NCBI RefSeq assembly: GCF_000428745.1
Contig: NZ_KE386795.1
Location: 518,692-582,691, forward strand
Direction: 5' to 3'
Origin: Veillonella magna DSM 19857
Lineage (GTDB): Bacteria; Bacillota; Negativicutes; Veillonellales; Veillonellaceae
DNA length: 64,000 nucleotides
Positions 4,035 through 27,000 of the stretch are shown in pieces; position 1 is the first letter of the stretch; each line of letters opens with the position of its first letter. The notes beneath the pieces are model-generated. The model was not told where the DNA came from. It was given only the letters and a program-made list of their open reading frames with translations, and ran no database searches. The position numbers were made by a program, and so were the translations under genes.

Positions 4035-4108
4035 AAAAAAATCGCTTTTAAAAGGTATCCATCATTGGCAACGTCTGCCTACGATGAATACGTTTGTAAA
4101 AGCGATTT
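4035..4108 (-). terminator. Rho-independent terminator of the rimP-ribF operon
   Basis: A 12-bp perfect stem (4039-4050 with 4097-4108, arm AAATCGCTTTTA) is followed on the minus strand by a run of T (complement of 4035-4040). It lies 17 nt after the ribF stop. Confidence 0.88.
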
Positions 4109-7268: not shown

Positions 7269-9725
7269 TTATAGCTGCGGCGTAATTTCTTCCATAACAT
7301 AGGCTTCAATAACGTCGCCTTCCTTAATATCGCGATATTTTTCAATGGAAATACCGCATTCAAAGCTGCTCTTTACTTCTTTCACTTCATCCTTAAAGCG
7401 GCGCAACGAATCAACCTTGCCTTCGTGAACAACAATACCGTCACGAATCAAGCGAATTTCCGAATTATTAGTAATCTTACCTTCCGTTACATAGGAACCG
7501 GCAACGATTGCCTTCGGCGTAGAAATAACCTGGCGTACTTCGGCACGACCTAAAATTACTTCTTTAAATTCCGGAGTCAACATACCGCGCATTGCGTTTT
7601 CTACGTCATTGATAGCATCGTAAATAACGCGATAGGTGCGAAGATCCACATTTTCTTTTTCCGCTGCCTTGCGAACCAATGCATCCGGGCGAACGTTGAA
7701 GCCGATGATAATCGCATTGGATGCCGATGCCAACATAACGTCGGATTCATTGATGGCACCAACAGCGGCATGAACAATCACGATGCGTACTTCCGGATTC
7801 TTAATTGCTTCTAGCGATTGACGCAAGGCTTCTACGGAACCCTGTACATCCGCTTTAATAATGATATTTAAATCCTTCAACTCGCCTTGCTGAATCTGAT
7901 TGAAGATATCATCCAAGGTAACCTTGTGAGTTCTCTGCATTTCGGATACACGCTGTTTTTCAATACGTTTTTCCGCAATGGTACGTGCTTCGTTATCATC
8001 CACAGCGTCCATAATTTCCCCTGCCTGCGGTACATCGGACAAACCGAGAACTTCCACCGGCATAGACGGACGGGCTGCTTTTACCTTTTCGCCGCGTTCG
8101 TTAGTCATGGCACGCACTTTACCGAAAGCGGTACCTGCGATAATGGTATCACCTACGCGAAGTGTCCCCTTCTGTACGAGTACGGTACATACCGGACCAC
8201 GTCCTTTATCGAGTTTTGCTTCGATAACAACGCCTTGCGCATGGCGATTCGGATTGGCCTTCAGTTCCATAACTTCTGCTACGAGCAAGATATTTTCCAA
8301 CAAGTCATCAATACCCTGGCGTTTCTTAGCGGATACGGGAACCATGATTGTATCGCCGCCCCATTCTTCCGGCAATAAGCCATGTTCGGCCAACTGTTGT
8401 TTTACATGATCCGGATTTGCGCCCGGCTTATCCATCTTGTTAATGGCTACCAATACCGGCACATTAGCGGATTTAGCATGGTTGATAGCTTCGATTGTCT
8501 GTGGCATAACACCGTCATCGGCAGCAACGACGAGAACGGCAATATCCGTCGACTGTGCACCGCGCAGACGCATAGCGGTAAAGGCTTCATGACCCGGGGT
8601 ATCCAAGAAGGTAATCTTATTTCCTTTGTAACGTACCATGTACGCACCGATGTGCTGCGTAATACCGCCGGCTTCATGGGCTGTTACATTGGTCTGACGA
8701 ATTACGTCCAACAATGAAGTTTTACCATGGTCAACATGCCCCATGATAGTAACAACCGGCGGGCGCGGCTGCAATGTTTCCGGCGCATCCTCGATTTCCT
8801 TGATTTCCGTAGGATCTTCTGCCGGTTCCACTTCGGTTACTTCCACACCAAAGTCTTCTGCTACGATGGTTGCCGTATCAACATCGATTTCCTGATTAAT
8901 CGTAGCCATAACGCCGAGGAACATCAACTTTTTAATAATTTCGCTGACTTCACGTCCCATTTTATCTGCCAATTCTTTTACAGTAAGCGGGCCGTCTAAT
9001 TCGATAGCTGTCGCAATCGCTGCTTCGGCACGGCGTTTTTCTTCTTCCTTGTGCTGACGATTCTGTTCGTTACGCTGTTTTACCTTATTCTTGCTTTTTG
9101 CTAAGGATGTGGACAAGAGGGATTGCGGGCGGTTGCCGTCACGCTTATTCTTTTTATCTTTTCTATTGCGACGATCGTTGCGATTATCATTTTTACCGCG
9201 ACGGTCATCACCATGGTTGTCACCGCGCTTGTTGCGATGATCATTTCGTTCATTGCGATTACTATCGTTGCCGCGATTCGAATCATTGCCGCGGTTATTG
9301 TCATGACCGTTACCATGACGGCCTTCGTTTTTCGCATTGTCGTGCTTACGATTGCCGTCGCGATTGTTATCGCGTTTTTCATGGCGATCGTTATGACGGG
9401 CTTCCTGCTTTTCAGACTGCTTGCGATGATTCTGTTTACCGCCGTTATTGCGATTGTCGTGGCTGCGGTCTTCGTTTGCACGCGTGTCTTGTGCGCGATT
9501 GTTCTGCGCTCCGTGTCCACCTTTATCCTGGTGTCCGTTCTGTTCTGCCTTAGCCTGCGGCTTATCGTTGCCTTTTAATGCTTTTTTTACAATGTCAATG
9601 GCTTTTTCGTCAATGGCATTAAAATTATTTTTGGCCTCAATATTATGTTTTTGCAGCACATCGATAACCTGCTGATTCTTTACGCCCAATTCTTTTGCTA
9701 CTTCATAAATTCTTTTTTTGGACAT
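7269..9725 (-). CDS. infB: Translation initiation factor IF-2
   Basis: GTPase that delivers initiator tRNA to the 30S subunit. From the ATG at 9725 (AAGGGGG site 7 nt upstream; earlier in-frame ATGs would overlap or crowd the site) it is 818 residues. It has a short IF2-N helix ([11 protein letters not shown]), then about 150 residues almost free of hydrophobic side chains and rich in N, R, D, K, H and G (roughly residues 50-205). A second IF2-N domain follows, then the GTPase with G1 [13 protein letters not shown]3 DTPGHEAFT and G4 NKMDKPGA, and C-terminal domains II-IV. The hydrophilic linker is longer and more repetitive than usual. The gene follows ylxQ by 20 nt. Confidence 0.97.
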
Positions 9726-26091: not shown

Positions 26092-26149
26092 TATGAAAAA
26101 AATATACCGCCAAGGTGAGGAGAATACAGGTCCTCTTGTCCTGGCGGTG
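26092..26149 (-). terminator. Terminator after the Rpn remnant
   Basis: ACCGCCAAGG / CCTGGCGGT stem (26106-26115 with 26141-26149 region, one bulge) with an inner GAGGA/TCCTC pairing. On the minus strand it is followed by TATATTTTTTTCAT. Confidence 0.82.
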
Positions 26150-26166
26150 TAAGGTAGTTCTTTTGC

Positions 26167-27000
26167 TTATAACAAATTATGTTCTTTGGCGAGGTCGTGA
26201 ATTTCTTGTTCAGATAGAGAGGTACATTTAACAATTACATTGAGAGGTATCTGTTCCTGTAACATAGATAAGGCAATTTTTTGCGCACGTAATTGGCTTC
26301 CAGCAGCTTGGCCTTGCCGTAGTCCCTCCTCGCGTCCAATGGCAATTCCAATATTTTTGGCTTCCCGTCTGTGTCTTTCGATTTCCATTGCGTATGTCAT
26401 ATATGATTTCTCCATTTCTTTGTTTTCTTTTACCTTGCCTACCTCGGTGTCAATTTCATTAACAAATTTTCCTCGAGGGGCATGACCGTTAATGTATTGT
26501 AAGAAATAAAAAACGTTCCGAGGGATTCATAGATGTCTCGCTGGTCAGGTCTTACGAATGACACATCTACGGCATCTATGAATCCCTCTTTCCCAGCACC
26601 GGGGAGAAGAGAGTCCTGTATATAGGTTGAACAACGTCATTCGCTAGACCTGACTTGTGATGCCTATATACAGGACTCTACTTTATATTACGTATACGTC
26701 CAGACGAACGCTTTTGCTATCGCGACGGATGGCAATGGACTTTTCTACTTCAGGAAATTCAATAGACTGAATGGTAATGCCTAAGATTTTTTCAATTAAT
26801 CGTTTGCAGATTCCTTTATTATGCATTACCTTCTCGAATAAAAAATTTTCTGTAATCGTTGCGTCCTGCCATTTTGGCATATGATACTGCGAAGCATTGT
26901 ATAGCCTTGTTTTATCATGTACTAAAAATTGTGATATATCTAACTCCCTGCTGTAATGCCAATCTTTTATAGTTGGCAATTTATATTTTGCCGTGTTCAT
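26167..27000 (-). pseudogene. Broken Rpn / PD-(D/E)XK transposase-family nuclease gene
   Basis: Two pieces of one Rpn-family (PDDEXK_2) gene in order. The N-terminal piece (27000-26683, 105 codons) has the typical WQDATITENFLFEKVM and ends at RLDVYVI, right at the first catalytic Asp region, with a stop. The C-terminal piece is in frame from about 26519 to 26167: RNVFYFLQYINGHAPRGKFV, then VGKVKENKEMEKSYMTYAMEIERHRREAKNIG and the GREEGLRQGQAAG tail usual for the family. Its internal ATG at 26415 is unlikely to be a real start. About 110 residues holding most of the nuclease core are missing, and a 160-bp structured element lies in their place. The protein is therefore inactive; the N-terminal fragment could still be expressed. 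Confidence 0.8.
26520..26679. mobile_element. Two-hairpin element with mutually complementary loops
   Basis: Layout A-C-A'-B-C'-B'. A (26520-26535, GAGGGATTCATAGATG) pairs perfectly with A' (26573-26588). B (26610-26626, AGAGTCCTGTATATAGG) pairs perfectly with B' (26663-26679). The two loops contain C (26544-26562, GTCAGGTCTTACGAATGAC) and C' (26636-26654, GTCATTCGCTAGACCTGAC), complementary at 17 of 19 positions. Each loop also has an inner GTCA/TGAC stem. A 21-nt linker joins the hairpins. Found between the halves of the broken Rpn gene. No coding capacity and no U tract next to either stem. It may be a MITE-like element, a transposon end pair or a structured RNA; the class is unknown to me. 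Confidence 0.7.

Follow-up and report, generated by a model that had tools for sequence, protein, structure and literature searches.

The window analysed here, a 64,000-nucleotide stretch of the Veillonella magna DSM 19857 genome (G000), contains the two ends of an interrupted Rpn-like gene on its minus strand, with a pair of hairpins between them. The N-terminal remnant (26683–27000, minus strand) is an ORF of 105 amino acids that ends ...RLDVYVI and a stop codon at the second hairpin; the region it occupies matches that of an uninterrupted Rpn gene (PF12784) at C1:200 kb with 85% identity over 540 bp. The C-terminal remnant of the same gene is an 82-aa ORF (26167–26415, minus strand), whose frame can be followed by eye to about position 26513. 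Neither remnant alone gives a Pfam match. Just beyond the C-terminal remnant a further hairpin is seen by eye (CCGCCAAGG...TCCTGGCGG; 26103–26150), and similar sequence also lies near the copy of the hairpin pair at C1:330 kb.

Both hairpins of the pair have 100% complementary arms, of 16 nt (26520–26535 with 26573–26588) and 17 nt (26610–26626 with 26663–26679), as an earlier, sequence-only reading had described them. Folding of 26500–26700 yields −85.4 kcal/mol, compared with −45.5 (s.d. 3.87) for 200 dinucleotide shuffles (z = −10.31). The first hairpin, copy A (26518–26589, plus strand; covariance-model match of 79.4 bits; G000:C1:545209-545280), has the core GTCA-GGTCTTACGAA-TGAC at 26544–26562 (plus strand), with the constant tip GGTCTTACGAA at 26548–26558. 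Copy B has the opposite orientation (26610–26680, minus strand; 68.1 bits; G000:C1:545301-545371) and its core, GTCA-GGTCTAGCGAA-TGAC, was located by pattern match at 26636–26654 on the minus strand. A linker read from the sequence (26590–26609) joins the two 3′ arms, making the pair tail-to-tail. The core is absent from 100/100 shuffles of the window.

The complementarity of the two loops at 17 of 19 positions, on which the sequence-only reading had placed weight, is confirmed, the cores agreeing at 17/19 positions when read on opposite strands (0 and 2 mismatches to the core). The loops are complementary because copies A and B, carrying the same directional tip motif, face each other, and the proposed order of three intertwined palindromes is therefore better described as one directional tip present in two opposite copies of one hairpin. 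A single dispersed hairpin family accounts for the 160 bp, which hold two of its copies in opposite orientation. Since loop complementarity follows from the orientation and many family copies are solitary, a kissing-loop switch, or an RNA pair designed and kept as such, finds no support.

In the V. magna genome the 201-bp window stretch has 29 matches, and the pattern GTCAGGTCTNNCGAATGAC has 76 matches at up to three mismatches (41 forward, 35 reverse), compared with one for the reversed control; a covariance model finds 73 matches at E ≤ 1e-3 (150 of 401 candidates scored). All 76 were read with their flanks and folded. The hairpin unit is directional and about 72 nt long, and the complete copies are built alike: inside a variable outer stem (19 modelled pairs) comes a small internal loop, then a mid stem of 4 bp, a single bulged base and a closing stem, also of 4 bp, that carries the constant 11-nt tip GGTCTNNCGAA. 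The closing stem is of the type GTCA/TGAC, GCCC/GGGC, GCTC/GAGC or GCCA/TGGC; among 13 further or odd matches that were folded, several have GCCC/GGGC or GCTC/GAGC closing the same tip.

The covariance model was built on 47 of the 76 core matches, which are complete and align practically gap-free. The 29 left out are 13 half-copies, C1:201266 and the two window copies (near-identical twins were kept), three C21, two C6 and two C17 copies, and C2:94108, C3:129, C5:48839, C5:63632, C26:1488 and C28:3582; C2:94108, which folds into a full hairpin, was excluded solely for its three mismatches. Among the 47, double changes occur in 25/29 pairs (outer stem 19/19, inner stems 6/10), with 321 double-change cells compared with 118 in shuffles. 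The covariation score is 0.518, compared with 0.192 in shuffles and at most 0.248 when the partner is slid by 1–3 columns; since the modelled structure was drawn from the same copies, the figure of 79.8% paired cells is biased in its favour. In a 400-kb stretch chosen regardless of hairpins, 10/12 tip words GGTCTNNCGAA are closed by at least 4 bp (G-T allowed), compared with 0/9 control words. The several copies with compensatory changes that the sequence-only reading had looked for are thus present as regards the arms, and we are highly confident in the description as a dispersed family of covarying hairpins. Of its suggestion of a non-autonomous transposable element, the real structured element with many covarying copies stands; mobility is possible. 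That the arms are free to vary while staying paired and the 11-nt tip is fixed makes the recognised part separable from the structural part, and the some 73 natural variants could be used in binding tests.

The 13 half-copies (13/76) keep the 5′ arm and the tip and lose the 3′ arm in or just past the closing stem. New, A-rich sequence follows and, to the extent that it was read, a further hairpin begins. The tip thus doubles as a breakpoint. Conversely, 3′ halves with a foreign 5′ side occur at C5:48839, C6:109769 and in C21. Four tips follow a single L-PSP gene at C8:28.7-28.9 kb, where the half-copies of the array keep the tip. A tandem hairpin array with a period of about 166 bp is also found at L015:2527-2880 (C21:11.0-11.4 kb).

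Uninterrupted Rpn copies of the same genome hold about 336–341 bp of coding sequence at the hairpin site, which rules out the possibility, raised with the sequence-only reading, that the segment belongs to the normal sequence of an undamaged Rpn gene. The gene at C1:200 kb aligns with both the N- and the C-terminal part, and the 341 bp between them correspond to about 176 bp with the hairpin pair in the window. The pair recurs in the genome at 99, 94, 90 and 92% identity. By alignment the junctions are as in the window at C1:330 kb and in one C28 copy; in a second C28 copy the C-side junction is retained and more is missing on the other side. A unit of about 209 bp that comprises the pair and 3′ sequence of the Rpn gene (26479–26687) is repeated with 90.4% identity over 209 bp at C1:673 kb, where the pair and about 47 bp of Rpn sequence lie 3′ of a histidine-kinase gene. 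No target-site duplication was seen by eye at C1:673 kb, nor was an empty site seen, the orthologous gene ends in the congener G001 being too different to compare. The simplest order of events would be one insertion at the C-side junction, then adjacent deletions, then copying of the unit; in the window, one hairpin pair together with an adjacent deletion would have destroyed the middle of the Rpn gene.

Between the window and C1:330 kb, the pair is 99% identical over 201 bp within a 1064-bp match of 83.3%, so by arithmetic the flanks are about 80% identical, which suggests that the hairpins were recently copied or else converted locally. This contrast, together with the chimeric and half hairpins and their breakpoints at the tip, would also be expected if the family were a mutational product in which gene conversion and hairpin-templated (quasipalindrome) repair homogenise gene-end hairpins with no recognition factor. 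Alone, such a process leaves unexplained why the tip is kept at unlinked genes despite different outer arms and why two relatives examined have no such family, and we consider it very improbable.

Many copies lie at gene ends. With ORFs of at least 100 aa and distances measured from the core, a same-strand stop codon lies within 80 bp upstream in 19/47 complete copies, compared with 3.4% at random positions and strands; an opposite-strand stop lies within 80 bp downstream in 7/47, three of which are also among the 19, and 24/47 satisfy neither. The 3′ foot is T-rich, with some 8-nt window of at least six T in 29/47 copies compared with 13% at random, and of at least seven T in 17/47 compared with 3%. 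T directly after the parsed 3′ arm averages 3.3 of 10, although this arm-end parse is rough, giving stem lengths from −5 to 41 that were not used. The two window copies have only weakly T-rich feet (CTCTTTCCC and CTCTTCTCC). The statement that the element is unlike a terminator fails for the family, in which both features of an intrinsic terminator occur in excess: a stable hairpin directly after a gene (19 copies, the other 28 lacking it) and a T tract at the 3′ foot. The hairpins are terminator-like and may terminate transcription.

Genes just upstream of copies include those for pyruvate kinase, dihydroorotate dehydrogenase, DHDPS and CbiZ, and among the 30 upstream proteins scanned no common function was seen. 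The family may instead be an RNA-level regulon, in which an RNA-binding protein or a small RNA recognises the tip in 3′ UTRs, as an RNA motif carried by a terminator, and the copies are kept by selection gene by gene, not by mobility. A constant tip on changing stems, the orientation bias (19/47 against 7/47, with three in both) and the half-copies of the L-PSP array, which keep the tip, agree with such a role. We nevertheless judge it rather unlikely: several of the upstream genes are housekeeping genes and yet six congeners have no match, near-identical units occur at unlinked sites, one of them with Rpn sequence, and the scanned upstream genes share no evident function.

Outside the V. magna genome the family was sought at several depths. 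The core pattern at up to two mismatches has 59 matches in the V. magna genome, none in the six congeners, and one each (with one or two mismatches) in 3/59 other genomes. The covariance model finds nothing in the 60 other genomes of the order, the six congeners included, under filters that showed 57/73 of the known copies. A class-wide model search gave 0/379 other genomes and excludes large families only, because its filters showed just 13/73 of the known copies. Phage and plasmid records have no blastn match at E ≤ 1e-5. Exact-core scans of two collections, which may omit records near the V. magna genome, gave one Gemmatimonadetes stretch among genome_contigs, with a tip on a 7-bp closing stem by eye, and two viral_contigs sharing one coding-like stretch; all were taken as chance matches. 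Because searches of related species did not find it, the family looks like a private, lineage-specific, once-mobile element, and it illustrates how private structure can be acquired by a lineage 3′ of housekeeping genes.

Rfam has no match in the window above the gathering score; at E ≤ 10 four weak hits appear, to families from animals and plants, and none reaches that score. An integron attC site has a conserved core at the foot and a variable loop. In the window family the foot varies and the tip is constant, and the assignment was rejected.

In behaviour the closest kind is the REP sequence. REPs, as the accessible text of PMC3733652 describes them with REPINs, BIMEs and the RAYT transposases, are palindromes of 20–40 bp with a GTAG or CGTC tag that are dispersed, mostly extragenic, fall into lineage-specific families and occur in paired or arrayed copies; in dispersal, lineage-specificity and paired or arrayed copies the present hairpins resemble them. 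Size, tag and transposase do not fit: where a REP is a tagged palindrome of 20–40 bp, the present unit has 72 nt, a constant tip and covarying arms. A GTAG, GGAG or CGTC tag lies within 16 nt around the 5′ foot in only 4/47 copies, and the Y1 transposase domain PF01797 has no match in G000, so that membership of the GTAG/CGTC REPs was rejected. The same domain was found in 1/7 genomes of the genus (G002) and 5/14 control-ring genomes. Its absence from the V. magna genome also leaves the idea of paired ends of a single-strand transposon without support.

Uptake-sequence terminators of Neisseria and Pasteurellaceae, in which closely spaced complementary copies form a stem, likewise put a repeated sequence into many gene-end hairpins of one lineage; by the portion of PMC1852404 at hand, the uptake word generally has at least 1000 occurrences. 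Here there are 76 copies at up to three mismatches and the constant word is in the loop, 10/12 tip words of the 400-kb stretch lying inside closed stems, and a DNA uptake sequence was rejected. Catalogued families of repeated stem-loops in bacterial genomes are similar in kind (PMC2267715, PMC1590033, in the parts accessible); the terms ‘compensatory’ and ‘loop sequence’ are absent from the available part of PMC2267715, and the tip-GGTCTNNCGAA family may differ from its families in these respects. IS1272, to which the title of PMC5678879 ascribes ‘inverted repeat-replacing’ transposition, differs in being an insertion sequence with a transposase gene, for which the 209-bp unit is too short.

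With little more than even confidence, we favour a REP-like, lineage-specific repeat that spread as DNA, was kept as terminators and has a tip recognised by a putative factor. Near-identical copies lie at unlinked places, and half-copies are broken at the tip. Copies would multiply at the DNA level and persist at sites where a hairpin behind a gene does no harm or brings a benefit. Those at gene ends would act as intrinsic terminators, and because of this function the arms would stay paired while their sequence drifts; selection for termination and hairpin-templated mutation could both be sources of the covariation. The constancy of the tip would be explained if a factor binds it, which could be a putative mobiliser that works on the hairpin once extruded, or else a partner that binds RNA.

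An analogous family with a different tip exists in a sister genus. In 400 kb of G018, a genome picked for its Rpn genes, long hairpins share the tip CAAAC-GGTATTTCATAAT-GTTTG. At up to three mismatches, this pattern occurs 44, 35, 7, 43, 47 and 39 times in the six sister-genus genomes and not at all in the other 55 genomes of the order. In 18 copies, double changes occur in 18/28 pairs, with 61 cells compared with 18 in shuffles; further pair types are no more numerous than in shuffles of these copies. Half-copies broken just past the tip, chimeric hairpins and tandem arrays recur here, and in the chimeras at L245:1794 and L250:1500 the left and right arms are of different arm types, as if swapped at the tip. 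The tandem arrays at L224:1500-1820 and L245:1500-1965 have a period of 147 bp. When 400 kb of each of four genomes was searched de novo at up to one mismatch, six hairpins sharing an 11-mer were found in V. magna and nine in G018 (shuffled maxima 4 and 5), compared with three each in the Rpn-less G001 and G009 (shuffled maxima 4). At up to two mismatches the separation is weak, with 11 against a shuffled maximum of 8 in V. magna, 14 against 11 in G018, 8 against 10 in G001 and 7 against 9 in G009.

Rpn (YhgA-like) nucleases, the PF12784 group to which the interrupted gene and the hairpin-rich neighbours belong, are found in 16/61 genomes of the order, namely V. magna, six of the sister genus and nine belonging to other families. 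In V. magna there are 7 long hairpins in the 11.2 kb that lie within 1 kb of Rpn (20 in 613.6 kb elsewhere) and 12 in 42.2 kb in the sister genus (17 in 567.3 kb elsewhere), so that in the sequence examined they are about 19-fold and about ninefold denser near Rpn; no P value is given because the sister-genus sequence was largely chosen for Rpn and the counts are clustered. A long hairpin lies within 1 kb of 5/6 Rpn loci in V. magna and 6/16 in the sister genus. The Rpn gene at C1:200 kb is flanked on both sides by a hairpin-bearing stretch of 288 bp, 93% identical, and the same hairpin is found on both sides of Rpn at L209.

These observations suggest an Rpn-driven element, in which Rpn PD-(D/E)XK nucleases would act on hairpins and spread them, each lineage with its own tip, much as RAYTs are thought to spread REPs. 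The greater density near Rpn in both lineages and the flanking hairpins at C1:200 kb and L209 speak for it, as does the absence of a de novo hairpin family from the two Rpn-less genomes (400 kb each). Within the family of 28 genomes PF12784 is confined to V. magna and the six sister-genus genomes, the same seven that have the two hairpin families, a coincidence that is partly circular because only tips from Rpn-bearing genomes were searched genome-wide. Most copies of both lineages nevertheless lie elsewhere, only 2/30 sister-genus hairpin loci containing Rpn, and long hairpins are absent from the 1-kb surroundings of 10/16 sister-genus Rpn loci. Among the loci of other families (L212-L219), tblastn finds Rpn in 4/8, and at these four no shared-tip hairpins were seen by eye. 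Rpn and hairpins may merely both collect in variable regions, and the accessible text on E. coli RpnA describes a nonspecific DNA endonuclease (PMC5350276). We regard Rpn as the driving nuclease as distinctly doubtful; that it mobilises the hairpins is a lead rather than an established result. A shade more doubtful still is a new mobile system of two genera, with tips GGTCTNNCGAA and GGTATTTCATAAT, in which the Rpn of each lineage recognises its own tip, copies or swaps half-hairpins there and seeds gene ends with terminators.

A literature search on both subjects found, among the titles and abstract openings listed, none joining Rpn to palindromic repeats, which is no proof of absence. The accessible part of PMC5350276 does not mention hairpins, inverted repeats or palindromes, nor that of PMC10327210 hairpins, inverted repeats or terminators, and Kingston and co-workers, in the part of their text at hand, raise the target-site specificity of Rpn nucleases as an open question. 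The family offers a testable link to these nucleases.

A reverse transcriptase as mobiliser was also considered. The V. magna genome has one RVT_1 match, at C1:186 kb, with the hairpins of C1:199 kb about 13 kb away, and the candidate was rejected, there being no evidence for a role. This gene is a 568-aa ORF (L155:1360-3066; G000:C1:186 kb), which by eye appears to have retron-like RT motifs and a Toprim-like C-terminal part. In G016 a hairpin of a shorter type (aagcccctacc...ggtaggggctt) borders an Rpn gene on either side (L202:8375-8422 and 9308-9355). Elsewhere in the window, positions 4039–4108 form a hairpin outside the tip-GGTCTNNCGAA family, with perfect arms of 12 nt and a 46-nt loop.
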